A stretch of 64,000 nucleotides of DNA from Desulfallas thermosapovorans DSM 6562 (GTDB taxonomy: Bacteria; Bacillota; Desulfotomaculia; Desulfotomaculales; Desulfallaceae). Location of the stretch: contig NZ_VNHM01000015.1 of NCBI RefSeq assembly GCF_008124625.1, positions 1-64,000 of the forward strand, given 5' to 3'. The position numbers were made by a program, and so were the translations under genes. Positions 32,670-59,150 of this stretch are shown here, piece by piece (position 1 is the stretch's first letter; the number at the start of each line of letters is the position of its first letter). The notes under the pieces were generated by a model. It was not told where the DNA came from. It saw only the letters and a program-made list of their open reading frames with translations, and searched no databases.

Positions 32670-32740
32670 AACATAAAACTGTTGACCTTTATAATGGTTT
32701 TACTGTATACTGAATTGTAAGTTTTTACGTTAAAGGTTAT

Positions 32741-33016
32741 GAAGGGGAGCAATACCTGCAAGCCGCGCCACAGAGAGCTGGGGGTGCTGAAAACCAGTGC
32801 CGGAACAGGTTAGGCATCGCCCCGGAACTGCTTTGTCGAAAGGCTGTCCGCCCGGTAGGCAAAGCCGGGAACAGGTGGCCCGTTATTGCTACCGTGTCGC
32901 TGACACACTCAAGAGGTTTTCGCCAAGGGCGCGAAAACAAGCAGGGTGGTACCGCGGGAGGAATTTAACACCTCTCGTCCCTGGTGGTTATTTCACCAGG
33001 GACGAGAGGTTTCATT
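32741..33016 (+). promoter_or_regulatory. T-box leader of the branched-chain amino acid operon
   Basis: Stem I starts around GGGGAGCAATACC (32744-32756) and contains AGAGAGCTGGGGGTGCTG. The conserved T-box AGGGTGGTACCGCG is at 32943-32956. A terminator stem (CCTCTCGTCCCTGG paired with CCAGGGACGAGAGG, 32971-33009) follows. Uncharged tRNA should favour the antiterminator. The specifier is not settled: ATC (32816-32818, Ile) fits the alignment to known stem I sequences, and CTC (32908-32910, Leu) is a weaker alternative. Confidence 0.9.
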
Positions 33017-33094
33017 ATTTATACGGTAAAACACGCTTCTTCCTATACAGGTGAAATGATGATTTCATTTGTTAATGATGAACACTAACACTAC

Positions 33095-33251
33095 TATGGA
33101 GGGAAGTGTACCTAGGGTTCCGCCTCCCATGGGAGGGACTGGACCGAGCGGTACAGGCCGCCGGGGAATAACCACCGGGGGTTACACCGTGGGGATAAAA
33201 GACCCAAGCGGATAGGTTCCACCCTTGGAAAATATCAGCGGGGTCTTATTT
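33095..33251 (+). promoter_or_regulatory. ykkC-class riboswitch, probably ppGpp-sensing (subtype 2a)
   Basis: Conserved ykkC blocks occur in order: ACCTAGGGTTCCG (33110-33122), ACTGGACCGAGCGG, ACACCG and GGGGATAAAAGACCC. P1 can form from ACCTA (33110-33114) and TAGGT (33213-33217). The 3' P1 strand overlaps the left arm of a terminator (33199-33214 with 33233-33247, then TTATTTATTTT), so ligand binding should turn expression on. Guanidine, ppGpp and PRPP subtypes share this core. The ilv context is the reason for choosing ppGpp. Confidence 0.8.
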
Positions 33252-33356
33252 ATTTTAATAGCATTATGAAGGCTATATACGGGGGTGAAAAGACGGTAGT
33301 TTGTCCGGGCGTTGGATGCGGTTTTTAATAAACTAATGTTAACTTATTTTTAACAG

Positions 33357-33400: not shown

Positions 33401-34279
33401 ATGAGCCTTATAATTTATTTGGATGGTAAATATGTACCCGAGGAAGAGGCCGTCGTATCAGTATTTGACCACGGTTTGCTGTATGGTGACGGTGTGTTTG
33501 AAGGCATCCGGGCCTATAACAACCGGGTTTTTAAACTGTCCGAGCACCTGGAGCGGCTGTATGAATCGGCCCATACCCTGGCCCTGGTGATTCCCATCAG
33601 TATTGAAGAAATGCAGGAAGTGGTGCTGGAAACGCTGCGCCGTAATAATTTGCGGGATGCCTATATCCGCCTGGTGGTGACCAGGGGTAAAGGGGATCTG
33701 GGCCTGGACCCCCGTAAGTGTCCCAGAGCCACTGTTTTCTGTATTGCGGCCTCCATCCAACTTTATCCCGAGGAATTGTATGAGCAAGGCCTGGAGATGA
33801 TTACCGTGGCCACCCGGCGCAATCTAAGCGAGGCCTGCAACCCCAGGGTCAAATCCCTCAATTACTTAAATAATATCTATGCTAAAATAGAGGCCAATTT
33901 AGCCGGTGTGCCCGAGGCCATCATGCTCAATCAAGAGGGTTACGTGGCCGAGGCCACCGGGGATAATCTTTTCCTGGTCAAAAAGGGTAAATTGATTACT
34001 CCGCCCATACATGCCGGGTTATTGGAAGGTGTTACCCGCAATGCTGTAATAGAATTGGCCCGAAATAAAGGCATTGTGGTGGAGGAAAAGATGTTCACCC
34101 GGCATGATGTGTATAATGCCGACGAGTGCTTCCTCACCGGTACGGCAGCCGAATTAATCCCCTGCGTGCGGGTGGACGGGCGCGCCATAGGCAGCGGCAA
34201 GCCCGGCGAAGTATTCTGGGGTTTGCTGAAAGATTTCCGGGAATTGACCAAAGTGGACGGACCGGTTATTTTCGAATAA
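33401..34279 (+). CDS. ilvE: Branched-chain amino acid aminotransferase
   Basis: A 292-residue class IV PLP aminotransferase that interconverts leucine, isoleucine and valine with their keto acids. FDHGLLYGDGVFEGIRAYN, the PLP lysine in NPRVKSLNYLNNIYAK and EATGDNLFLVKKG are present. ATG 33401 follows CAGGAGTG. It is first in the ilv-leu operon and directly behind the T-box and ykkC leader, so transcription through it should depend on tRNA charging and on the aptamer ligand. Confidence 0.94.
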   Translation: MSLIIYLDGKYVPEEEAVVSVFDHGLLYGDGVFEGIRAYNNRVFKLSEHLERLYESAHTLALVIPISIEEMQEVVLETLRRNNLRDAYIRLVVTRGKGDLGLDPRKCPRATVFCIAASIQLYPEELYEQGLEMITVATRRNLSEACNPRVKSLNYLNNIYAKIEANLAGVPEAIMLNQEGYVAEATGDNLFLVKKGKLITPPIHAGLLEGVTRNAVIELARNKGIVVEEKMFTRHDVYNADECFLTGTAAELIPCVRVDGRAIGSGKPGEVFWGLLKDFRELTKVDGPVIFE

Positions 34280-34289
34280 ACAGGGAACG

Positions 34290-34325
34290 AAGGGACGGTT
34301 ATCCTGCTTCCGTGCCCTTGCTTCC
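34290..34325. repeat. Short palindromic repeat, copy 3
   Basis: AGGGACGGTTATCCTGCTTCC matches the reverse complement of copies at 781-810 and 8900-8928. It lies between ilvE and ilvD and is followed by a second CTTGCTTCC. Confidence 0.45.
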
Positions 34326-34431
34326 ATAACGGGAAGATGGCCATAAAGCAGGCTTTTAAACCGTATTTCCCCTGGATAAAGCATAAAAGGGACAGTGTAA
34401 GTAGATTAGCCATTTAGATAGGAGGATTAAA

Positions 34432-36096
34432 ATGCGCAGTGATGCCATGAAAAAGGGGCTCAGCAAAGCCCCCCACCGCTCTTTGTTCAAAGCGCTGGGT
34501 ATGACCGAGCAGGAGCTGGAGCGGCCCATCATTGGAGTAGTCAACTCATATAACGAAATAGTGCCCGGACACATGCACCTGCGCGAAATCACCGAGGCGG
34601 TCAAGGCCGGTGTCCGCATGAACGGCGGCACCCCCGTAGAGTTTCCCTCCATTGCGGTGTGCGACGGCATTGCCATGAATCATGAGGGTATGAAATACTC
34701 CCTGGCCAGCCGTGAAATAATCGCCGACTCCATCGAAGTGATGAGCATGGCCCATCCCTTCGACGGGCTGGTGCTGGTTACATCCTGTGACAAGGTGGTG
34801 CCCGGTATGTTGATGGCCGCGGCCCGGCTGGATATCCCTGCCATCGTGGTCAGCGGCGGGCCCATGCTGCCAGGTCGTTACCAGGGACGGGATATGTCCC
34901 TCAGTAATATATTCGAGGCTGTGGGGGCGGTGCGGGCCGGTAACATGACCGAGGCCGAGCTGGCCGAGGTTGAAGAATCGGTATGCCCGGGCTGTGGTTC
35001 CTGTGCCGGAATGTTCACCGCCAACTCCATGAACTGCCTCACTGAAGCCCTGGGTATGGCCCTGCCCGGCAACGGCTCGCTGCCCGCGGTTTCCGCGGCC
35101 CGCCGGCGCCTGGCTAAATTAACCGGCATGCGGGTGGTGGATTTGGTACGGGAAAACCTGCGCCCCTCGGATATTCTTACGGCCAGGGCATTTGCCAACG
35201 GCCTGGCCCTGGATATGGCTTTGGGCTGCTCCACCAACACGGTGCTGCATTTGCCCGCCATTGCCCACGAGGCCGGGGTGGAAATAAACCTGGATATTAT
35301 CAACCAGGTCAGTGAAAAAAACCCCAACCTGTGCAAGCTGAGTCCCATGGGCCAGCATTTTATGCGGGATTTGGATGAAGCCGGGGGTGTACCGGCGGTA
35401 CTCCGGGAACTGGTGGACCACGGGCTGGCTGACGGCAGTACCATGACCGTTACCGGTAAAACACTGGGGGAAAATGTGGCGGGTGCTGCTATAAAACGCA
35501 GTGATGTCATTCGCAGCGTAACTGACCCGTACAGTGCCAGCGGCGGTATTGCCGTGCTGTACGGTAACCTGGCCCCCGGAGGAGCGGTGGTGAAAAAGGC
35601 CGGGGTGGATCCGGAAATGCTTAAGCACCGCGGCCCGGCCCGGGTATTCAATTCCGAAGAAGAGGCCTGCCAGGCCCTGATTGACAAGCAAATTCAAAAG
35701 GGCGATGTTATTGTCATCAGGTACGAAGGCCCCAAAGGCGGCCCGGGCATGCGGGAAATGCTCACCCCCACTGCCACGGTAGCCGGGCTAGGTTTGGATA
35801 AAGACGTGGCCCTGATTACCGACGGGCGGTTTTCCGGTGCCACCCGGGGTGCTTCCATCGGGCACGTTGCCCCGGAGGCTGCCGAGGGCGGCCCCATTGC
35901 CGCGCTGCAGGACGGGGATATGATTGAAATAGATATACCCGGGTGCAAGCTGAATGTGCTTTTAAGTGAAGATGAGCTGGCGGCCCGGCTGGCCCGGTGG
36001 GTGAAGCCCGCGCCCAGGGTAACCAGAGGTTACCTGGCCCGGTATGCCCAGCTGGTAACGTCGGCGGGCACCGGAGCTGTTCTGAAAAAACTGTAG
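34432..36096 (+). CDS. ilvD: Dihydroxy-acid dehydratase
   Basis: A 554-residue Fe-S dehydratase that makes 2-ketoisovalerate and 2-keto-3-methylvalerate. Cluster cysteines appear in [10 protein letters not shown] and [18 protein letters not shown], and PGHMHL and [10 protein letters not shown] are typical. ATG 34432 lies behind AGGAGG. It is second in the operon. The 152-base gap after ilvE contains only the short repeat copy. Confidence 0.96.
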
Positions 36097-36201
36097 AAAA
36101 TAAAGCGCCAAACTGTCGTCCATTATACTCTACAATGCCATCTAATATATTTAAACTCCGCCGGGGCTGCCGGTTCCGGCGGGGTGGAATTTGCCAATGT
36201 G

Positions 36202-36239
36202 AATACGTGCTGCCGTGATTCGCCGGCAGCAGTCGTATT
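36202..36239. other. Long hairpin between ilvD and ilvB
   Basis: AATACG-TGCTGCCG pairs with CGGCAGCA-GT-CGTATT with only a GT bulge. A second GC stem, CCGCCGG/CCGGCGG, lies at about 36159-36183. Neither has a U-tract, so an mRNA processing or stability element is more likely than a terminator. Confidence 0.45.
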
Positions 36240-36346
36240 ACCCAAAAACTACATACCACACCAATTGTGGTAACAAATTCGGTCTGAAAATAACAGATAT
36301 GCGACAGGCCGGCTATTAAAATAAATTTACCGGAGGTGGAAGGGGT

Positions 36347-38005
36347 ATGCAAAAAACCGGGGCACAAATCCTGGTAGATAGTCTCCTGGCCGAGGGGGTG
36401 GATACTATTTTCGGCTACCCGGGCGGGGTGGTACTACCAATTTACGATGTGCTTTATGATTCTGAAATTAGACATATACTGACCCGGCACGAGCAGGGCG
36501 CTGCCCATGCCGCCGACGGCTATGCCCGGGCCTCCGGTAAACCCGGAGTATGTCTGGCCACGTCGGGGCCCGGTGCTACCAACCTGGTTACCGGTATTGC
36601 CAATGCCTATATGGATTCCGTTCCCATGGTGGCAATTACCGGCCAGGTGGCTACGTCGCTTTTGGGCCGGGACTCTTTTCAGGAAGCCGATATTACAGGT
36701 ATAACTTTACCCATCACCAAGCACAATTTTTTGGTTAAAGATCCCAAAGATATAGCCAGGACGGTGCGAGAGGCTTTTTATATCGCCACCAGCGGCCGCC
36801 CGGGTCCGGTACTTATCGACATGCCCAAGGACGTATCCTCGGGTGTGGCGGAGCATATCGAGCCCGGACCGGTGCAGCTGCCGGGGTACGTAGCCAAAAA
36901 AGAGCCAGATCCCGAACAAGTGGCCAGGGCCGTCCGGGCGATTGAAGAAGCCGAGCGGCCCGTTATTTATGCCGGTGGTGGAGTGGTAAGCGGCGGTGCC
37001 CATGGCGAATTGCTGGAGCTATCTGAAATGCTGCTCATACCGGTGGCCACCACCCTGATGGGCCTGGGTGGTTTCCCCGGCAACCACCCGCTGTCGGTGG
37101 GTATGCTGGGCATGCACGGCAGCAAGTACGCCAATTACGCTGTAAACGAGTGCGATTTGTTAATTGGCGTGGGGGTGCGCTTTGATGACCGGGTGACCAG
37201 TAAACTGGAGGAATTCGCCCCCGGCGCTACCATTATGCATATTGACATAGACCCGGCGGAAATAGGTAAAAATGTTGATGTGGATATTCCCGTGGTGGGT
37301 GATGTCAGGCTCGCCCTGCGTCAAATAATTAAGCGCCTCAAGCCCAGACTGGCCAGCCGGTGGCGGGATAAAATAGCGATCTGGAAAAAGGAACACCCTT
37401 TCGGGTTTGAGGAAAACGGGCGGATTAAGCCCCAGCAGGTTATCCAGGAAATATGCAATGTCACCAAGGGTAATGCCCGGATTACCACCGAAGTGGGGCA
37501 GCACCAGATGTGGGCCGCCCAGTATTATACCTTTACCCGGCCCCGGACCTTCATTTCATCGGGCGGGCTGGGCACCATGGGCTTCGGCTTCCCGGCCGCC
37601 ATCGGTGTGCAGGTGGCCTGTCCGGATGAAACAGTAATTGATATTGCCGGTGACGGCAGCATTCAAATGAATATTCAGGAACTGGCCACGGCGGTGCATT
37701 ATAAATTGCCGGTAAAAATAGCTATTATGAACAACGGTTTTTTAGGTATGGTCAGGCAGTGGCAGGAACTCTTTTATAACCGCCGCTATTCCTACACCGA
37801 GCTGGAAAACCCCGATTTTGTCAAGCTGGCCGAGGCATATGGCGCCGTGGGCATTCGGGTGAGCAAAAAATCGGAAGTGCGGCCCGCCCTGGAGGAAGCC
37901 ATGGCAGTGGAAAAACCGGTGGTTATTGATTTCCCCATTGAGCGGGAGGAAAATGTGTATCCCATGGTTCCCCCCGGCGAACCCATCCATAAAATGCTGG
38001 GATAG
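36347..38005 (+). CDS. ilvB: Acetolactate synthase large subunit (first copy)
   Basis: A 552-residue ThDP-dependent catalytic subunit that forms acetolactate or acetohydroxybutyrate. FGYPGGVVLPIYD, the catalytic Glu in RHEQGAAHAADGYAR, the FAD/ThDP region SSGGLGTMGFGFPAA and the GDGSIQMNIQEL Mg2+-ThDP motif are all visible. ATG 36347 follows GGAGGTGG. It is followed by its small subunit after only 11 bases, so it is the natural partner of ilvN. A second, divergent copy lies at 39738. Confidence 0.96.
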   Translation: MQKTGAQILVDSLLAEGVDTIFGYPGGVVLPIYDVLYDSEIRHILTRHEQGAAHAADGYARASGKPGVCLATSGPGATNLVTGIANAYMDSVPMVAITGQVATSLLGRDSFQEADITGITLPITKHNFLVKDPKDIARTVREAFYIATSGRPGPVLIDMPKDVSSGVAEHIEPGPVQLPGYVAKKEPDPEQVARAVRAIEEAERPVIYAGGGVVSGGAHGELLELSEMLLIPVATTLMGLGGFPGNHPLSVGMLGMHGSKYANYAVNECDLLIGVGVRFDDRVTSKLEEFAPGATIMHIDIDPAEIGKNVDVDIPVVGDVRLALRQIIKRLKPRLASRWRDKIAIWKKEHPFGFEENGRIKPQQVIQEICNVTKGNARITTEVGQHQMWAAQYYTFTRPRTFISSGGLGTMGFGFPAAIGVQVACPDETVIDIAGDGSIQMNIQELATAVHYKLPVKIAIMNNGFLGMVRQWQELFYNRRYSYTELENPDFVKLAEAYGAVGIRVSKKSEVRPALEEAMAVEKPVVIDFPIEREENVYPMVPPGEPIHKMLG

Positions 38006-38016
38006 GAGGGCTATAG

Positions 38017-38538
38017 ATGCTGAGGCATACTTTAGCGGTGCTGGTGGAGAATAACCCGGGCGTACTGGCCCGGGTGGCCGGCCTGTTCAGCCGGCGCGGT
38101 TTTAATATTGACAGCCTGGCGGTGGGGCGAACCGAAAACCCCGACGTGTCCCGGATGACCATCGTGGTTGACGGCGATGACAGGGTCTTGGAGCAGGTCA
38201 CCAAACAGCTGCACAAGCTGGTGGATGTAATAAAAATAAATGATATCACCGTGGATGAATATGTTGACCGGGAACTGGTGTTAATAAAGGTAAATGCCGA
38301 CCCCGCCCAGCGGGGCGAGGTAATGCAGATTGCCGATGTGTTCCGGGCCCGCATTGTGGACCTGGGCCGCAGGACATTAACCCTTGAATGTACGGGCAAC
38401 GAAGGCAAAATAAATGCCTTTGAAGAATCCCTGCGCCCGTACGGTATCAAGGAGCTGGTGCGTACAGGCAAAATTGCCATGGTAAGGGGTTCCAAATATA
38501 CGGGATATCATGATAACGGTACCAAGGAGGAGAATTAA
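38017..38538 (+). CDS. ilvN: Acetolactate synthase small subunit
   Basis: A 173-residue regulatory subunit with an N-terminal ACT domain ([33 protein letters not shown]) that binds valine, and the C-terminal ALS_ss_C domain ([32 protein letters not shown]). ATG 38017 lies behind TAGGAGG. It confers feedback inhibition on the large subunit. It sits between ilvB and ilvC with tight spacing. Confidence 0.95.
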
Positions 38539-38543
38539 TAATT

Positions 38544-39539
38544 ATGGTTAAGGTTTTTCACGATCATGACGCGGATTTGGCGGTACTCAAGGGTAAGAAG
38601 ATTGCCATTATGGGTTACGGCAGCCAGGGGCATGCCCAGGCCCAAAACCTGAAGGACAGCGGATTGGATGTGGTGGTGGGTTTGCGCAAGGGCAGTGCCA
38701 GCTGGTCCAAAGTTGAAGCGGATGGTCTGGTGGTGACCACCGTGGCCGAGGCGGCCAGCCAGGCTGATGTGATTCAAATACTGCTGCCGGATGAAACCCA
38801 GGGCCGGGTTTACACCGAGGAAATTGCCCCTTACCTCACCGAAGGAAAGGCACTCATGTTCAGCCACGGTTTTAATATTCACTTTGGACAAATTCAGCCG
38901 CCCGAAAACGTGGATGTAATCATGGTGGCGCCCAAGAGCCCCGGTCACATGGTACGCCGGATGTACGTGGATGGCCTGGGTGTGCCGGGACTGGTGGCGG
39001 TGCACCAGGATTACACCGGCCGGGCCCGGGATATCGCCATGGCCTACGCCAAGGGTATCGGCTGCACCCGGGCGGGGGTGTTCGAAACAACCTTTGCCGA
39101 AGAAACCGAAACCGATTTGTTTGGCGAACAGTGCGTGCTGTGCGGCGGGGTCAGTGAACTGATCAAAGCCGGCTTTGAAACCCTGGTGGAAGCGGGCTAC
39201 GCCCCTGAGATGGCTTACTTCGAGTGCCTGCACGAAATGAAATTGATCGTGGACCTGATTAACGAGGGCGGCCTCAGCTGGATGCGCCACTCCATCAGCA
39301 ATACCGCCGAGTATGGCGACTACATGGTGGGTCCCCGGATCATTAATGAGGATACCCGGGAAGAAATGCGGGCTGTGCTGGCCGAAATTCAAAACGGCAC
39401 CTTTGCCAAGGAATGGATGCTGGAGAACCAGGTAAATCGCCCCGTATTCAATGCCATTCGCAAGCAGGAAAAGGAACATCTCATTGAAGAGGTGGGGGCT
39501 GAAATAAGGGAAATGATGCCCTGGTTGAAAAAGAAATAA
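38544..39539 (+). CDS. ilvC: Ketol-acid reductoisomerase (class I)
   Basis: A 331-residue enzyme that isomerises and reduces acetolactate. It has the Rossmann loop [17 protein letters not shown] near the N-terminus and the all-alpha knotted domain with [16 protein letters not shown] and the Mg2+ ligands. The short, single-domain length identifies class I. ATG 38544 is five bases after the ilvN stop, with AAGGAGGAG overlapping the end of ilvN. Confidence 0.96.
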
Positions 39540-39557
39540 ATTGACAAAGAAATTATA

Positions 39558-39630
39558 TCATGACTTTTTGTGCCCCCAAAAGGCACGCATATAAGTTTTG
39601 AAAATTGAAAAACCGAAACGGGCAGAAGGA
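39558..39630 (+). repeat. Paired conserved element, copy 2
   Basis: About 70 bases similar to 30999-31073 (TTTTTGTGCCCCCAAAAGGCACGCATATAAG). Here GTGCC/GGCAC can form a small hairpin. It lies between ilvC and the second ilvB. Confidence 0.5.
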
Positions 39631-39737
39631 TGCCCAACAAGTAATATTTGATGTGGCTAAAGAGTTTTATGATCATAATGTACTACGATATAACGCGTTA
39701 TGGTATTTTAGAGAATATGTTTTGAGGGGGACTCGCC

Positions 39738-41405
39738 ATGGAAATAACGGCTGCCCAAGCCCTGGTGCAGTGCCTGGAAAAAGAACAAGTGGAAATAATT
39801 TTCGGCTACCCCGGTGGAGCAATTCTACCGGTGTACGATGCCCTCTATCATTCGTCCATCCGGCATGTGCTGGTGCGGCATGAGCAAGGGGCGGTGCACG
39901 CGGCGGACGGCTATGCCCGGGCCACCGGGCGGGTGGGGGTGGTAATGGCCACCTCAGGCCCCGGGGCCACCAACCTGGTCACCGGTATAGCCAACGCCTA
40001 CATGGACTCGATACCCCTGGTTCTTATTAGCGGCCAGGTACCCACCAGCCAGGTGGGTACCGATGCCTTTCAAGAGGTAGATATTACCGGCATTACCATG
40101 CCCATAACCAAACATAATTACCTGGTCAAGGATGCCGCCCAGTTGCCCCGGATCATTAAAAATGCGTTTCACATTGCTTCCACCGGGCGCCCCGGTCCGG
40201 TGCTCATCGACCTGCCCAAGGACGTGGCCCAGACCACGATTAAATTTCAATATCCTGAAACGATCCAATTGCGCGGCTATAAACCTACTTTCCGTGGCCA
40301 CCCCAATAAAATTGCCGAAGCCGCCCGGCTTATCGCCCGGTCCCAAAAGCCGGTGATTTACGCCGGGGGAGGAATACTGGCCAGCCGGTCCAGCGCGGAG
40401 TTGCTGGCCCTGGCCGAAACCATCAATGCACCGGTTACCAACACCTTCATGGGGCTGAGCAGCTTTCCCGGTGACCACCCGCTGTTTTTGGGCATGCTGG
40501 GGCTGCACGGTACCCGTTCCGCCAACCTGGCGGTAACCAACTGCGATTTGCTGATTGCCCTGGGAGCCCGGTTTGATGACCGGGTAACGGGCAAAATTGC
40601 CGAATTCGCGCCCAACGCCGGGGTTATTCACGTAGATATCGACCCGGCGGAAATAGGCAAGAATGTACCGGTGCACGTGCCCATTGTGGGTGATGTGAAG
40701 CAGGTGCTGCAGGAGCTGTTGTCACGCCTGGAAAAAAGAACGGACACCCGGTGGTTGGAGCAGATAAAGGCCTGGAAGAAGGAATACCCGCTGTACTACG
40801 ATGCCGGTGGCGATAAGTTAAAGCCCCAATACGTGATCGAAAAACTGGATGAGATAACGGGCGGGAACGCCATAGTGGCCACCGATGTGGGACAGCACCA
40901 GATGTGGGTGGCCCAGTACTACCAGTTTAGAAGGACCGGCGGCTTAATATCGTCGGGGGGACTGGGGACCATGGGCTTCGGCCTGCCGGCCGCCATGGGG
41001 GCCCAGATAGGCCTGCCCGGTGAACAGGTAATCCTGGTGGTGGGTGACGGGGGCTTTCAGATGACCATGCAGGAACTGGCCACCATTGTGGAACAGGAAC
41101 TGCCCGTGAAGATAATTATTTTGAACAATCACGTGCTGGGCATGGTACGCCAGCTGCAAAAGGTATACTGCCAGGGCAGGTATATGGCGGTGGACTTTAA
41201 ATTCCACCCGGACTTTGAAACCCTGGCCCAGGCGTACGGAATCAAGGGTTATACTTTACGCACCAATGAAGAAGTGGATAGTTTGCTGCCCCGGGCCCTA
41301 GACGAGCCTGGAGCGGTTTTGATTAATTGTCTGGTTAGCGCCGAGGAAAACGTCAACCCCATGGTGCTGGCCGGTAAATCCATCAGTGAAGCTATTGATT
41401 GCTAA
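39738..41405 (+). CDS. ilvB: Acetolactate synthase large subunit (second copy)
   Basis: A 555-residue paralogue of the 36347 gene with the same landmarks: FGYPGGAILPVYD, RHEQGAVHAADGYAR, SSGGLGTMGFGLPAA and GDGGFQMTMQEL. It is clearly diverged and is not a recent tandem copy. It follows a 198-base gap, which contains the paired element, and precedes leuA. No second small subunit is present, so it either shares IlvN or works alone. A catabolic or otherwise specialised role is possible, but the position favours biosynthesis. Confidence 0.93.
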   Translation: MEITAAQALVQCLEKEQVEIIFGYPGGAILPVYDALYHSSIRHVLVRHEQGAVHAADGYARATGRVGVVMATSGPGATNLVTGIANAYMDSIPLVLISGQVPTSQVGTDAFQEVDITGITMPITKHNYLVKDAAQLPRIIKNAFHIASTGRPGPVLIDLPKDVAQTTIKFQYPETIQLRGYKPTFRGHPNKIAEAARLIARSQKPVIYAGGGILASRSSAELLALAETINAPVTNTFMGLSSFPGDHPLFLGMLGLHGTRSANLAVTNCDLLIALGARFDDRVTGKIAEFAPNAGVIHVDIDPAEIGKNVPVHVPIVGDVKQVLQELLSRLEKRTDTRWLEQIKAWKKEYPLYYDAGGDKLKPQYVIEKLDEITGGNAIVATDVGQHQMWVAQYYQFRRTGGLISSGGLGTMGFGLPAAMGAQIGLPGEQVILVVGDGGFQMTMQELATIVEQELPVKIIILNNHVLGMVRQLQKVYCQGRYMAVDFKFHPDFETLAQAYGIKGYTLRTNEEVDSLLPRALDEPGAVLINCLVSAEENVNPMVLAGKSISEAIDC

Positions 41406-41422
41406 TATGAAGGGGGATCCAC

Positions 41423-42958
41423 ATGAACAACCGGGTGTATATTTTTGACACCACCTTGCGGGACGGGGAACAATCCCCGGGGGTGAGTTTGAATGTCAGC
41501 GAAAAGCTGGAGATAGCCAAACAACTGGCCCGGCTGGGTGTGGACATTATTGAGGCAGGTTTCCCCATCACTTCCCCGGGCGATTTTGAGGCTGTAAAGG
41601 CCATCGCCCGGGAGGTGCGAGGCGTAACCGTGGCCGGGCTGGCCCGTACCAATTTTGCCGATATCGACCGGGCCTGGGAGGCCGTTAAGCAGGCCGACCA
41701 GCCGCGTATCCACACTTTTATCGCTACCTCGGATATTCACTTAAAGCACAAGCTGCGCATGACCAGGGAGCAGGTACTCCAGGCCGCCGTGGCGGGTGTC
41801 AAACGTGCCAAAAGCTACACCGCCGATGTGGAGTTTTCCGCCGAGGATGCTTCCCGCAGCGATCCCGACTTTTTGTGCCGGGTGTTCGAGGCGGTTATTG
41901 AGGCCGGGGCCACCACCATTAATATACCCGACACGGTGGGTTATACCACCCCGGATGAATATACCGAGTTTATTCGCAATATTATGACCCGCACCAAAGG
42001 TATTGAAAAGGCCATTGTCAGCGTGCATTGCCATGACGATTTGGGCATGGCCGTGGCCAATTCCCTGGCTGCGGTGCTGGCCGGGGCCCGGCAGGTGGAA
42101 GGGGCCATCAACGGCATCGGGGAAAGGGCGGGCAATGCCTCCATCGAGGAATTCGTGATGGCTCTGTATACCAGGCGGGACCGGTACGGCCTGGAAACGG
42201 GTATCAACACCGAGGAAATATATCGCACCAGCAAGCTGGTCAGCAAACTCACGGGCATGGATATTCAGCCCAACAAAGCCGTGGTGGGCAAGAACGCCTT
42301 TGCCCACGAATCAGGTATTCACCAGGATGGGGTGCTTAAAGAACGTACCACCTATGAGATCATGAATCCAGCCATGGTGGGCCTTTCCCACAGCAACCTG
42401 GTGCTGGGCAAGCACAGCGGGCGCCACGCCTTTCGCTCCCGTTTGGTGGAACTGGGCTTTGTTTTACATGAAGATGAGCTGAATAAAGCCTTTGGCCGCT
42501 TCAAGAGCCTGGCCGACCGCAAAAAGGAGATCACCGACCAGGATATTGAAGCCATTGTGGAAAATGAAATTCGCAAGGTACCTGCCACCTATGAACTGGC
42601 TTACCTGCACATCAGCAGCGGCACCACGGTGGTACCCACTGCCACAGTGGGCCTCACCAGGGGCGAGGAACTGCTGGAAGAGGCGGCCTGCGGCAACGGC
42701 CCGGTGGATGCCATCTGCAAGGCGGTGGATAAAATCACGGGTTACAGCTGCCGGCTGGCCAGTTGGGGTATTAATGCCATTACCGCCGGTAAAGACGCCC
42801 TGGGTGAAGTTACCTTGCGCATAGCTGAAAACAACCGGGATAAACTGTACATGGGCCGGGGCATCAGCACCGACGTGCTGGAAGCCAGTGCCAGGGCTTA
42901 TGTTAACGCGGTAAATAAAATGATCTATGAAAAAAATAATCAACCTGATGAAAAATAG
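41423..42958 (+). CDS. leuA: 2-isopropylmalate synthase
   Basis: A 511-residue enzyme that condenses acetyl-CoA with 2-ketoisovalerate. The DRE-TIM barrel motif [15 protein letters not shown] opens the protein, [16 protein letters not shown] carries metal ligands, and residues from about 390 onward form the LeuA allosteric dimer domain that senses leucine. ATG 41423 follows AAGGGGGAT. It is 17 bases after the second ilvB, so the two are in one transcript. Confidence 0.95.
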
Positions 42959-42967
42959 GGGTGACAA

Positions 42968-44233
42968 ATGATGGCCATGACCATCACCGAAAAGATACTG
43001 GCCGCCCATGCCGGGGTGGACCGGGTGGAACCCGGGCAATTGATCAATGTTAAAGTTGACCTGGCCCTGGGTAACGATATCACCGCCCCCGTGGCCGTCC
43101 GCGAATTTGAAAGAATAGGCGTGGAGACCGTTTGGGACCGGGAGCGGGTGGTAATTGTGCCCGACCATTTCGTGCCCAACAAGGACATTAAATCAGCGGA
43201 CCAGGTTAAGGCCCTGCGGGAATTTGCCCGCAAGCACGGGCTTACTCACTTTTATGAAGTGGGCCGCATGGGTGTTGAACACTGCCTGCTGCCCGAACAG
43301 GGCCTGGTGGGGCCCGGGGACCTGGTCATCGGTGCCGACAGCCACACCTGCACCTACGGCGGCCTGGGGGCATTTTCCACCGGGGTGGGCAGCACCGATT
43401 TGGCGGCGGCCATGGCCCTGGGGGAAACCTGGCTTAAGGTACCCGAAAGTATTAAATTTGTTTATCATGGCGAGCTGCCCCGCTGGGTGGGCGGTAAAGA
43501 CCTGATACTTTATACCATTGGTCAAATCGGTGTCGACGGGGCACTGTACATGGCCATGGAATTTACCGGCCCGGCGGTGGAAAGCCTGGATATAGAGGGG
43601 CGGTTGACCATGGCCAACATGGCCGTGGAGGCCGGGGCCAAAAACGGCATCGTCCCTCCGGATGAGATAACCCGCCGGTACGTGGAAGGCCGGGCCAAAC
43701 GACCCTATACCTTCTACCAGAGCGATCCGGATGCCCGCTACGCTAAAGTTGTTGAAATTGACGTGAGCAAGCTGGAGCCCCAGGTGGCCTTCCCCCACCT
43801 ACCCGAGAACACGCGCCCGGTGAGTGAGGCCACAGGCGTAACCATAGACCAGGTGGTCATCGGTTCCTGCACCAACGGGCGGCTGTCGGATTTACAACTG
43901 GCCGCCCGGGTACTTAAAGGGCACCGGGTAAACGACAACTTGCGGCTGCTGGTGATTCCCGGCACCCAGGAAATATACATGCAGGCGCTGCGGGAGGGAC
44001 TGGTGGAACAATTCATCGAGGCCGGTGCGGCGGTGAGCACCCCCACCTGCGGACCCTGCCTGGGCGGGCACATGGGCATTCTGGCCAGGGGCGAGCGGGC
44101 CCTGGCCACCACCAACCGTAATTTTGTGGGCCGGATGGGGCATCCCGAAAGTGAAGTATACCTGTGCAACCCGGCGGTGGCCGCCGCCTCGGCGGTGCTG
44201 GGCCGTATAGCCGCCCCCTGGGAGGTGGAATAA
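42968..44233 (+). CDS. leuC: 3-isopropylmalate dehydratase large subunit
   Basis: A 421-residue aconitase-family subunit of the short bacterial/archaeal type. It has [20 protein letters not shown] and [10 protein letters not shown], which supply the three [4Fe-4S] cysteines. With LeuD it isomerises 2- to 3-isopropylmalate. ATG 42968 is close to the leuA stop behind GGGGTG; ATG 42971 is also possible. It is followed by leuD after one base. Confidence 0.95.
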
Positions 44234-44234
44234 T

Positions 44235-44738
44235 ATGACGCTGCAAGGTAAGGCCTGGAAATTCGGCGCTGATGTGGATACCGACGCCATTATACCGGCC
44301 CGTTACTTGAATACTTCCGACCCGGCGGAGCTGGCCAAACACTGCATGGAGGATGCCGACCCCCAGTTTCCCGGTAAAGTGCGGCCCGGTGACATTATCG
44401 TGGCCGGCAAAAACTTCGGCTGCGGCAGTTCCCGGGAACACGCCCCCATCGCCATCAAGGCGGCCGGGGTAAGCTGTGTAATCGCCAAATCCTTTGCCCG
44501 GATATTCTACCGCAATGCCTTTAATATCGGGCTGCCCATTTTCGAAAGCGAAGAAGCGGCCCGGGCCATCCAGGAAGGTGACCAGGTGGCCGTGGACCCG
44601 GCCCGGGGCGAAATTAAAAACTTGACCAAAAACGAGACTTATAAAGCCACCCCCGTGCCCCAATTCATGCAGCAAATCATCGCCGCCGGGGGATTAATCG
44701 GCTACGTATCCCAGCGGCTGCGGGAGGCAAAGGTTTAG
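44235..44738 (+). CDS. leuD: 3-isopropylmalate dehydratase small subunit
   Basis: A 167-residue swivel-domain subunit with [27 protein letters not shown] and [16 protein letters not shown]. It completes the LeuCD enzyme. ATG 44235 lies one base after the leuC stop with GGAGGTGG inside the leuC end, showing translational coupling. Confidence 0.95.
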
Positions 44739-44806
44739 TAAAAAGTAATGGTGTTGTCCGGTGCGGCCTTTATACGCGCCGCGTAAAACAAGGAGTGAAA
44801 ATTAAT

Positions 44807-45886
44807 TTGTATACAATCACGTTATTGCCCGGCGATGGTATCGGCCCCGAGGTAATCGCCGGTGCCGTGCATGTGCTGCAAGCGGTGCAGGAGCAGCACA
44901 CCGGGGTCCGGTTTGTGCTGCGGGAAGCCCCCTTTGGAGGCAGTGCCTGCGATCAAACGGGCACTCCGCTGCCTGAAGAAACACTACAGCTCTGCCTGTC
45001 CGGGGATGCCGTACTATTGGGAGCGGTGGGCGGTCCCAAATGGGATTCCCTGCCCGTGCACCTGCGCCCCGAGGTGGGGGCGCTGCTGCCCTTGCGCAAG
45101 CACCTGGAGGTATTTGCCAACCTGCGGCCATCGGTGATTTTCCCGGCCCTGGCCGATGCCAGTACCCTGAAGCGGGAAGTGGTGGAAGGCCTGGATGTTA
45201 TGGTGGTGCGGGAACTCACCGGCGGTATCTATTTCGGCACCAAGCACCGGGAAACCCTGCCGGACGGCGGTGTCAAGGTGGTGGAAACCTTGGAGTACAC
45301 CACCGCCGAGATCGTGCGGGTGGCCCGGGTGGCTTTTGACCTGGCCCGCCAGAGGCGCGGTAAACTCACGTCGGTGGATAAAGCCAATGTACTGGAAAGC
45401 TCCCGCCTGTGGCGGGAAGTGGTGTCGGAAATGGCCGGTGAATACCCCGACGTGGAACTAAACCACATGCTGGTGGACAACTGCGCCATGCAGCTGGTAC
45501 GCTACCCCAAACAATTTGACGTGCTGCTCACCGAGAATATGTTTGGCGATATACTGAGCGACCAGGCCTCCCAGTTGACGGGTTCCATCGGTATGCTGCC
45601 CTCGGCCAGCCTGGGCGGCAAGGTGGGACTGTACGAACCCATTCACGGTTCCGCCCCCGACATAGCGGGGCAAGACGTGGCCAACCCCATCGCCACCATT
45701 CTTTCGGTGGCCATGATGCTGCGCTTTTCTTTCAACCTGCCCGAAGCAGCGAATTCGGTAGAGCGGGCCGTATCCCGCGTGCTGGAGGAAGGCTACCGCA
45801 CCGCCGACATCATGCAGCCCGGAATGCGGCAGGTGGGCACCAAAGAGATGGCCGAGCTGATAGGGGTCAGGCTTAAAGTTTGTTAA
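44807..45886 (+). CDS. leuB: 3-isopropylmalate dehydrogenase
   Basis: A 359-residue NAD-dependent beta-decarboxylating dehydrogenase. The N-terminus reads [11 protein letters not shown]. Substrate and metal residues are in [11 protein letters not shown] and the [21 protein letters not shown] motif, with GSAPDIAG for NAD. I choose TTG 44807, 11 bases after AAGGAG; the in-frame GTG 44795 overlaps that ribosome site. It ends the leucine branch; cimA follows after 131 bases. Confidence 0.93.
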
Positions 45887-45945
45887 AGTAACCATAATAG
45901 CCATATATAAAAATAAAAGGGTGTATATCCTTTAACTTCGGATGT

Positions 45946-45978
45946 CCCGGGGTGAAGAATTAACCATATCACCCCGGG
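45946..45978 (+). other. Perfect hairpin before cimA
   Basis: CCCGGGGTGA and TCACCCCGGG form a perfect 10-bp stem with a 13-base loop. No U-tract follows, so it may be an mRNA stability or processing element. The ribosome site of cimA lies 25 bases on. Confidence 0.5.
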
Positions 45979-46017
45979 GTAACCAGTATATATTCATTAT
46001 TGAAGAAAGGAACGGAG

Positions 46018-47640
46018 ATGGACTTGCCAAGAGTTGAGATATACGACACTACCTTGCGGGACGGAACTCAGGGGGAGGGTATTTCATTATCCGCCAAGGA
46101 TAAAGTTAAAATAGCCCTCAGGCTTGATGAACTGGGTTTTCATTACATAGAGGGGGGCTGGCCGGGTTCCAATCCCAAAGACCTGCGTTTTTTTGAACTG
46201 ATTAAGGAACACCAACTGAAAAATGCCCGCATCTGTGCTTTTGGCAGCACCAGAAAATCCGGCGTGGCCGCCGACCGGGATGAAAATTTGCAGCAAATTG
46301 TCCGTTCCAATGTACAGGTAGCCACCATATTCGGCAAAACATGGGATTTCCATGTACGGCATGCTTTGTTGACCACTCTGGAGGACAATCTGAATATGAT
46401 TGAAGAATCAGTAGCTTATTTAAAACAGCAGGGCATGGAAGTTTTTTATGATGCCGAGCATTTTTTTGACGGTTTTGCGGCCAACCCGGAATATGCCCTG
46501 GCCACACTGCAGGCGGCCAAAAAGGGAGGTGCCTCCCGCATTATCCTTTGTGATACCAATGGTGGCCGGCTGCCCAATGAGATTTATGAGTCGGTGGTGG
46601 CGGTAAAGAAGGTTTTGGATGTGCCCCTGGGGATACACTGTCATAATGACGGGGAACTGGCCGTGGCCAATTCACTGGCGGCGGTGCAGGCCGGGGTAAT
46701 CCAGGTGCAGGGCACCATTAACGGTTACGGTGAACGCTGCGGCAATGCCAATCTTTGCTCCATCATACCCAACCTGGCCTTTAAATGCCACAGGCCCAGC
46801 ATTCCTGAACAAAGCCTGGCGGAGCTCACCGAATTGTCCCGGTTCGTCAGCGAGCTGGCCAATATGCACCATATGAACAACCAGCCCTATGTGGGGGGCA
46901 GCGCCTTTGCCCACAAAGCCGGGGTGCACGTCAACGCGCTGTTGAAAAACCCCCGCACCTATGAGCATATTGAGCCCGAAAAGGTGGGTAACCGGCGCCG
47001 GGTGCTGGTATCGGAACTGAGCGGTCTAAGCAACCTGATTTATAAATACCAGGAACTGGATTTGGGGCTGGGTGTTGACAAAGAGGCCAACCGCCAGCTG
47101 TTGGAGGAATTAAAAGAGCTGGAGAACCAGGGTTATCAATTCGAGGGTGCCGAAGGTTCCTTTGAACTGCGCCTGCGCAAGGCCTTTTATGGTTACCGGG
47201 AACCCTTTTCTCTGGAAAACCTGAAGGTGCTTATAGAGGTGCGCGACGGCACTGTTTATTCCGAAGCCATTATCAAAATTAATGTTAACGGCCAGGTGGT
47301 GCATACCGCCGCCGAGGGCAACGGGCCGGTAAATGCCCTGGACAACGCCTTACGCAAGGCGCTGGAAGGATTTTACCCGGAAATCTCGGGCATGCAGCTA
47401 AATGACTACAAGGTGCGGGTGCTGGATGAAAAGGACGGCACCGGGGCCGTGGTGCGGGTGCTGGTGGAAACCGGAGACGGTCACTGCTCCTGGGGCACGG
47501 TGGGGGTAAGCCCCAATATCATTGAAGCCAGCTGGGAGGCATTGGTGGACAGCATTGCCTATGGCCTGCTGCGTAAAGAAAACAAGGACGAAGTGGATAG
47601 CCAAAAAATAATTACCGGCGTATTTCGCGGTAAATGCTGA
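46018..47640 (+). CDS. cimA: (R)-citramalate synthase
   Basis: A 540-residue DRE-TIM enzyme of the CimA type (DTTLRDGTQGEGISLSAKDK). It makes citramalate from pyruvate and acetyl-CoA, the first step of threonine-independent isoleucine synthesis; LeuCDB then serve as shared enzymes. [17 protein letters not shown] carries metal ligands, and the C-terminal third is the LeuA-like regulatory dimer domain. ATG 46018 behind AAAGGAACGGAG is preferred to TTG 46000. Homocitrate and isopropylmalate synthases are related, but length and signature favour CimA. Confidence 0.9.
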   Translation: MDLPRVEIYDTTLRDGTQGEGISLSAKDKVKIALRLDELGFHYIEGGWPGSNPKDLRFFELIKEHQLKNARICAFGSTRKSGVAADRDENLQQIVRSNVQVATIFGKTWDFHVRHALLTTLEDNLNMIEESVAYLKQQGMEVFYDAEHFFDGFAANPEYALATLQAAKKGGASRIILCDTNGGRLPNEIYESVVAVKKVLDVPLGIHCHNDGELAVANSLAAVQAGVIQVQGTINGYGERCGNANLCSIIPNLAFKCHRPSIPEQSLAELTELSRFVSELANMHHMNNQPYVGGSAFAHKAGVHVNALLKNPRTYEHIEPEKVGNRRRVLVSELSGLSNLIYKYQELDLGLGVDKEANRQLLEELKELENQGYQFEGAEGSFELRLRKAFYGYREPFSLENLKVLIEVRDGTVYSEAIIKINVNGQVVHTAAEGNGPVNALDNALRKALEGFYPEISGMQLNDYKVRVLDEKDGTGAVVRVLVETGDGHCSWGTVGVSPNIIEASWEALVDSIAYGLLRKENKDEVDSQKIITGVFRGKC

Positions 47641-58963: not shown

Positions 58964-58982
58964 GCGGACGACAATTAAATGG

Positions 58983-59123
58983 AAAGCGCCAGAACCCGTT
59001 TTGCCGGGTTGACGAGGGGGGAGTTTATCGAAATTTCGGCGGGTGCTCCCCGGTTCGGTCATGACCGTTAAAGGTATTACAAAACCCGCGGGTAACTGCG
59101 GGGACAAAGGATGCCGGATGACC
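58983..59123 (+). ncRNA. glmS ribozyme: glmS ribozyme
   Basis: The conserved core is clear: AAGCGCCAGAAC with the cleavage site expected between A58985 and G58986, GTTGACGAGG, TTTATCGAAATTTCGGCGGG and CTCCCCGG, then the 3' GACAAAGG stem. It self-cleaves when glucosamine-6-phosphate binds, lowering glmS expression. It lies about 160 bases before the glmS start, and its identity is very sure. Confidence 0.95.
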
Positions 59124-59150
59124 AGTCAAAGGCAGGAATACCGGTTTAAT

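Follow-up and report, generated by a model that had tools for sequence, protein, structure and literature searches.

The BCAA operon of Desulfallas thermosapovorans DSM 6562 is very probably read through two RNA checkpoints placed in series, a T-box for tRNA-Ile and a ykkC-fold aptamer for ppGpp, each working as an ON switch, which together would form an approximate AND gate. The DNA analysed, referred to below as the window, is a stretch of 64,000 nucleotides (contig NZ_VNHM01000015.1, positions 1 to 64,000). On its forward strand the leader runs from a promoter-like site through the T-box, terminator 1, the ykkC-fold aptamer and terminator 2 to an 11-gene BCAA operon, with the following features:

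32682..32711, + strand: promoter-like, sigma-70-like site TTGACC-18-TATACT, upstream of both switches (consensus scan)
32730..32985, + strand: T-box leader (RF00230, 100.3 bits against a gathering score of 93)
32816..32818, + strand: AUC, the Ile specifier codon; a G and then the CCCC strand of stem I come next (alignment to RF00230)
32943..32956, + strand: T-box sequence AGGGTGGTACCGCG = AGGGUGGUACCGCG (sequence, RF00230)
32947-32950, + strand: UGGU bulge for the tRNA 3' end, within the T-box sequence (sequence, RF00230)
32970..33010, + strand: terminator 1, of the T-box (18 pairs)
33096..33222, + strand: ykkC aptamer assigned to subtype 2a (ppGpp-type), with P0, P1, P2, P3 and extended 5' and 3' ends (RF00442, R1, covariation)
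33149, + strand: C, a pyrimidine, at the site of the A conserved in guanidine-I (GAGC at 33146-33149; rule of PMC6031431)
33206..33208, + strand: AAG between the CCC and CGG of P3, its A (33207) being the equivalent of G96 of the PRPP aptamer (sequence comparison)
33199..33258, + strand: terminator 2, which cannot form together with aptamer helices P0 and P3 (hairpin 33199-33247 plus T-rich tail)
33401..47640, + strand: operon ilvE, ilvD, ilvB, ilvN, ilvC, ilvB2 (a second ilvB), leuA, leuC, leuD, leuB, cimA (NCBIfam)

The match to RF00230 spans the whole model (positions 1-219 of 219; E 6.2e-21 over 64 kb) and is the only T-box that Rfam finds in the window; with its 18-pair terminator it bears out the complete T-box plus terminator claimed in an initial annotation of this DNA. 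The Rfam covariance check proposed there places the T-box over its gathering score (100.3 against 93) and recovers the ykkC core, which the annotation had set about 85 bases past the T-box terminator, as a full-length match to RF00442 (Guanidine-I) at 33101-33212 (59.5 bits against a gathering score of 63, E 5.8e-10, lax filters) after a gap of about 85-90 bases from terminator 1. All 11 genes of the ilv-leu-cimA operon that it had described were likewise recognised by NCBIfam, and every coordinate it gave is borne out. Terminator 1 (32970-33010) includes the 3' strand of the antiterminator helix and so competes with the antiterminator; for 32940-33020 the folding energy is -40.6 kcal/mol (z -6.3).

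Both switches appear to lie on one transcription unit. An upstream promoter-type site, TTGACC or TTGACA with TATACT, accompanies 24 of 25 forward tandems (a TACAAT variant in L146), L079 being the one that lacks it. A separate promoter in the linker was rejected, as the consensus scan of the window found none on the + strand between T-box and aptamer, and linker sites matching 9 of 12 consensus positions occur in only 2 of the 25. Among 28 forward loci besides the window, the first gene of the operon to be found is ilvE in 27; the 28th, L054, is cut off by a contig edge. The genome encodes a RelA/SpoT gene and also CodY, so that other control of the operon may exist. A CodY box at the operon promoter was rejected: none was found there within 3 mismatches, and the sole match in the operon, at 46285 with 2 mismatches, sits inside cimA. 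CodY-box matches in the whole window number 6 against 2.5 expected, a count reached by 5 of 100 shuffles.

The input of the T-box, for which the initial annotation had named no tRNA, is most likely tRNA-Ile, judging by its AUC codon, unlike the tRNA-Leu of published tandems. In the alignment to RF00230 the CCCC that follows the specifier pairs with GGGG on the 5' side, and a purine (G) stands between the codon and this stem I strand, as expected of a T-box; the internal loop of stem I deviates from the AGUA/GAA consensus of the model. This reading is calibrated within the genome itself, since the same register gives the expected codons at the T-boxes of ileS (AUC), pheS (UUC), thrS (ACC) and, by eye, valS (GUC), and NCBIfam agrees with all four gene identities. 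Across T-box-first tandems the specifier is AUC (Ile) in 29 of 30 and GUC (Val) in one, with no Leu codon. Applied automatically to 26 tandems, a rule that looks for a codon, a purine and then a strand complementary to the 5' side gave AUC in 25, with second, off-register calls beside AUC in L064, L068, L074 and L111; L140 was read as AUC by eye, which gives 26 of 26. Three loci of another family (L169, L170 and L173) carry AUC followed by C, read by eye, and the GUC belongs to Clostridiales bacterium PH28_bin88 (L161), also read by eye. The L161 tandem has long, repeat-like insertions in variable loops of both its T-box leader and its aptamer.

Table 2 of PMC9481103 lists 16 'T box Leu, ppGpp' tandems, together with 15 in which ppGpp precedes a T box-Leu, and leuABCD lie within the operon studied here; a T-box reading tRNA-Leu, as the published tandems are described, would suit both. 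Against this, AUC is what the base-paired register yields in the window, and it does so in 29 of 30 forward tandems, with no Leu among the 30, whereas the same method reads CUC in 7 of 9 ppGpp-first tandems and is thus able to see Leu. We therefore rejected Leu specificity on the codon register of the 30 forward tandems and allow it a very slim chance.

The nine tandems of reverse order, all read by eye, comprise the seven with CUC (Leu), one with GUC (L279, at the same place as L212) and one, L216, with no clear codon. Genes of ilv or leu type occur in the fetched stretch of eight, the ninth (L193) having a transporter permease ORF, and several of these T-boxes score below the Rfam gathering score. 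Module order thus goes with input, Ile in T-box-first tandems (29 of 30) and mostly Leu in ppGpp-first ones (7 of 9).

Turning to the second module, RF00442 is the only ykkC family that the aptamer matches. A covariance model built from related aptamers (R1), of whose 24 members the window is itself one, gives it 152.9 bits. Over an alignment of 24 of 25 aptamers (L111 was omitted for a long insert), 95.4% of cells are paired and 8 pairs have changed on both sides, neither value being reached in 500 shuffles. The two-sided changes fall in two variable helices, and the binding-site columns are invariant across the 24 aptamers, which come from several families. P0 is formed by GGAA and UUCC, with its pairs kept in all 24 (one of them as G-U in three), and the AGGUUCC end is present in the window. 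ACACC at 33184-33188 has a C at the position of C75, the pairing partner of the ppGpp guanine, and it too is invariant in 24 of 24.

The residues that separate the ykkC subtypes point to ppGpp. According to PMC6031431, guanidine-I aptamers have a conserved A where subtypes 2a and 2b have a pyrimidine, 2a and 2b carry extra conserved ends (P0) that guanidine-I is said to lack, and G96 of the PRPP aptamer, more than 97% conserved, is the key difference between the two, a G96A change switching the aptamer about 40,000-fold to ppGpp. Position 96 was placed at 33207 through its spacing to G104-G105, the GG of AGGU, with residue numbers from the same paper. The window aptamer combines the ykkC fold, a pyrimidine in place of the guanidine-I A, the P0 ends, a position 96 other than G, and C75, as would be expected of subtype 2a, and we regard ppGpp as its best-supported ligand on the strength of these residues and of the biochemistry of relatives. 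A guanidine ligand would follow from the Rfam name of RF00442 (Guanidine-I) and from PMC12452182, which speculates on guanidine; yet the match of 59.5 bits stays below the gathering score of 63, a C replaces the conserved A46 where the guanidine-type aptamers compared have A, and both the AGGUUCC end and P0, described in PMC6031431 as absent from guanidine-I, are present. No T-box neighbours any of 12 guanidine-type aptamers, and we give the guanidine reading a minute chance.

A PRPP ligand (subtype 2b), which would link isoleucine starvation to nucleotide precursor supply, shares the same fold, and the 2a and 2b consensus resemble each other (PMC6031431); R1 also matches 2b aptamers, up to 96.7 bits. 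The window nevertheless has A at 33207, where G96 would be expected. To place this residue in context we compared 204 aptamer loci from relatives, which regular expressions divided into 116 2b-like, 46 2a-like, 13 guanidine-like and 29 other; on recheck 111 of the 2b-like and 45 of the 2a-like loci were distinct, and L097, classed as guanidine-like, is 2b-like by its letters, which leaves 12 in that class. Position 96 is G in 115 of 116 2b-like aptamers, the exception, L250, having ilvD downstream and looking 2a, and in the 46 2a-like aptamers it is A in 38, falls in a shorter joint in seven and is G in one (L200), which means that the position-96 rule is not absolute.

Gene context separates the classes further. 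Within 700 nt upstream and 900 nt downstream of the aptamer (flanks were shorter for up to 2 of 116 2b-like and up to 3 of 46 2a-like loci), a T-box neighbours 33 of 46 2a-like aptamers (28 with the T-box first and five with it after, one of the five a repeat), none of 116 2b-like, none of 13 guanidine-like (0 of 12 after recheck) and three of 29 others, these three being the ppGpp-first tandems L207, L212 and L216. Downstream genes were scanned for 60 of the 116 2b-like loci and found as an ORF for 44 of 45 2a-like loci (L195 repeats L193), with tallies given per family rather than per member, the scanned gene being the longest ORF starting at most 1.4 kb away and hence not always the first gene. 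After 2b-like aptamers, the 60 ORFs include 27 xanthine/uracil-type permeases, 21 lyases (19 adenylosuccinate lyase C-terminus and 2 ASL_C), four Bmp-type binding proteins, four ABC ATPases and one each of AIR carboxylase, PurK, PurL-type and formate-THF ligase domains, and no ilv or leu family was found among them. The 44 ORFs after 2a-like aptamers comprise 21 IlvD, nine of the IlvE family, four acetolactate synthase-type and one LeuA, others being binding proteins and transporters. R1 scores divide the loci similarly, 24 scoring at least 105 bits, every one with a T-box, and the next 96.7 bits, although 23 of the 24, together with the window, went into building the model, and the split is thus partly by construction.

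The genome also has a separate 2b-type aptamer, on its contig C5 about 0.6 kb before a purB-type ORF. With purine enzymes, permeases, transporters and formate-THF ligase following 2b-like aptamers, and this aptamer of its own in the same genome, PRPP retains a slim chance as the ligand in the window. Guanidine and PRPP were both set aside as candidate ligands on residues and gene context, and the claim of the initial annotation that a subtype 2a ykkC aptamer probably follows the T-box in series, each with its own terminator, agrees with the letters of the window and with the roughly 200 aptamers compared.

The genome's second ykkC aptamer (L051, G000:C5:160345-160462, - strand) is of PRPP type (CCCAGGCGG) and lies just above the Guanidine-I gathering score, so that Rfam alone would mislabel it. 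Thirteen 2a-like loci have no nearby T-box, some of them standing before ilvE or leuA; seven 2a-type aptamers without a nearby T-box (L174, L187, L197, L208, L225, L227 and L241) precede a sodium symporter family ORF, ABC ATPases or periplasmic binding proteins.

The second terminator that had been proposed to compete with the aptamer was found, and the strands shared between the two forms are the 3' strands of P0 and P3. When the aptamer is folded, P3 takes up 33203-33205 and 33208-33211, and P0 takes up 33217-33220; in the terminator form most of these bases pair instead with 33227-33243, and folding of 33189-33260 gives a terminator hairpin (-25.5 kcal/mol, z -3.4) with a T-rich tail behind it. 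All 24 loci folded, the window among them, form a hairpin that uses the same arm. The terminator alignment comprised 23 loci (L054, where the contig ends, and L146 were omitted). The hairpin pairs hold in 91% of cells with covariation not above that of shuffles, which may be expected of an arm shared with the aptamer and is no independent proof of terminator 2.

Relatives of both modules are described as ON switches (PMC6031431, PMC10687018, PMC9481103), and probing of another ppGpp riboswitch supports an outer stem stabilised by ppGpp against a terminator (PMC10687018). On this model a single transcript, with a predicted start at about 32720, would meet two intrinsic terminators before ilvE. 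At the first checkpoint, uncharged tRNA-Ile would stabilise the antiterminator through the AUC codon and the UGGU bulge. At the second, ppGpp bound to the 2a aptamer would keep P0 and P3 closed and should thereby block terminator 2, because the 3' strands of these helices are shared and would be unavailable to it. Full expression would then need both isoleucine-specific starvation and the general stringent alarm: were ppGpp raised by starvation for another amino acid, terminator 1 would stay closed, and were Ile-tRNA charging to dip locally without the alarm, terminator 2 would. A two-input AND gate, as the initial annotation proposed, is the best-supported logic for such an arrangement, and would be an approximate one. 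Uncharged tRNA itself raises ppGpp through RelA, and the two inputs are therefore not independent.

The tandem is a recurrent feature of the order. An R1 search of 113 of its genomes found 24 that carry the aptamer at E 1e-22 or better, and all 24 have a T-box core 102-205 nt upstream of it, so that the tandem is not a product of chance. Named carriers belong to Desulfofundulus, Desulfoscipio, Desulfallas, Desulfotomaculum and Desulfovirgula. Beyond the order, T-box-first tandems were seen in G116, G162, G150, G191 and G226. The T-box-first form also occurs in L161. A wider census, through orders and a class of other genomes, added only 3, 4, 7 and 1 genomes. L060 showed neither the motif nor an R1 match, and a pattern match in Saccharothrix (L151) was excluded, there being no T-box or aptamer around it by eye.

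To see what relatives without the aptamer carry, we examined the ilvD regions of 30 genomes with no strong R1 match, 29 of the order and one (G114) of the phylum. The specifier was readable in 26, and the first T-box seen is Ile in 23 of these; no automatic codon call was obtained in L309 and L320, which have a T-box core, or in L331 and L333, which have none. In counts that are not adjusted for shared ancestry, the 26 divide into 14 with a single Ile T-box, six with Ile-Leu (the second codon of L323 read by eye), two with Ile-Val, one with Ile-Val-Leu, two with Val only and one with Leu only, which places two or three T-boxes in nine of them. As the stretches reach 1.5 kb above ilvD, a T-box above the first one could escape where ilvE leads, while a downstream one is in view. 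No second T-box core was found in any fetched aptamer-bearing locus. The longest series (L313, from G033) has three serial T-boxes upstream of ilvD with the codons AUC, GUC and CUC (Ile, Val, Leu), so that each BCAA has its own.

In a single genus, g14, the aptamer occurs in four species, and two more, G037 and G071, show an Ile T-box alone. In the interval between T-box and ilvE of the latter two (L307 and L308), 11-17 bases resemble the 3' arm of terminator 2, the aptamer being absent; the best match, for which L308 alone was compared, has an E value of 0.014. This terminator-like remnant is a hint, suggestive only, that some members of the genus have lost the ppGpp module. We consider it reasonably probable, short of firm confidence, that such leaders are rows of exchangeable checkpoints, in which the first slot would nearly always read tRNA-Ile and the second would be empty or occupied by a T-box for Leu or Val or by a ppGpp aptamer, a global alarm sensor thus replacing a second amino-acid sensor, with the order of modules tracking the input across the phylum.

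That many relatives have an Ile T-box without the aptamer would also suit a reading in which the aptamer is a decayed passenger, terminator 2 is constitutive or leaky, and only the T-box matters. A decayed aptamer is nevertheless hard to reconcile with binding-site columns that are invariant in 24 aptamers while two-sided changes are taken up by two variable helices, or with a terminator 2 retained in 24 of 24 loci, and we hold this passenger reading to be highly improbable beside that of two working checkpoints.

Other RNA elements were noted along the way. The window holds a glmS ribozyme/riboswitch at 58974-59126 (+ strand, 108.6 bits). Elsewhere in the genome, a strong T-box (L002:1501-1792, - strand, equal to G000:C12:28454-28745; 140.6 bits) with a Leu-type CUC-G specifier precedes an acyl-CoA ligase-type ORF, and its stem III loop contains, in the same orientation, an entire tRNA-Ala(GGC) gene (Rfam 67.5 bits, with which ARAGORN agrees), an odd case of a tRNA gene nested in a tRNA-sensing leader.

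The combination of a T-box with a ppGpp riboswitch is already known from print, which the initial annotation did not mention. Tandem AND gates of this kind have been reported by the Breaker group (PMC5912903, legend to Fig. 6C; PMC9481103), the AND logic being worded as a prediction in PMC9481103. The window resembles them in having both modules, arranged in one of the two orders in print and each with an expression platform of its own, in its BCAA context and in its predicted ON/ON logic, but its specifier is AUC (Ile), whereas the review gives tRNA-Leu for both orders; either Ile cases have been named Leu in print, or the samples differ. In the literature searched, no paper was found to pair a ppGpp riboswitch with an Ile T-box; the primary paper (PNAS 2018, 10.1073/pnas.1720406115), beyond this scope, may name other tRNAs. 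Relative to that literature, three points would be new: that the T-box reads Ile, that module order goes with input, and that the second checkpoint is exchanged.

A 2025 survey (PMC12452182) describes 'T-box Guanidine-' tandems at ilv/leu genes in Bacillota, in a main text from which the word ppGpp is absent. These are very likely the same class of locus, named by the Rfam label, but the subtype residues of the window contradict guanidine as the ligand of the second aptamer. The same survey lists serial T-boxes before ilv operons (T-box T-box and T-box T-box T-box), which like the window set several terminator checkpoints in series, and in this order the first T-box seen is usually also Ile; the second checkpoint of the window differs in being a ppGpp-type aptamer rather than a Leu or Val T-box. 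The guanine/PRPP tandem (PMC5912903) similarly sets a ykkC subtype 2 aptamer beside another sensor, but differs in partner, ligand, genes and logic (IMPLY).

Together these findings suggest how expression of a costly operon could be confined to conditions in which a particular amino acid runs short while the cell as a whole is under alarm. For the published description, which gives Leu for either order, the Ile reading is a correction or an extension. Judging by the 2a residues, the guanidine label of PMC12452182 on BCAA tandems is probably a mislabel, these loci being T-box plus ppGpp. Related species of one genus, some with the ppGpp module and some lacking it, offer a natural comparison for what the second checkpoint adds.
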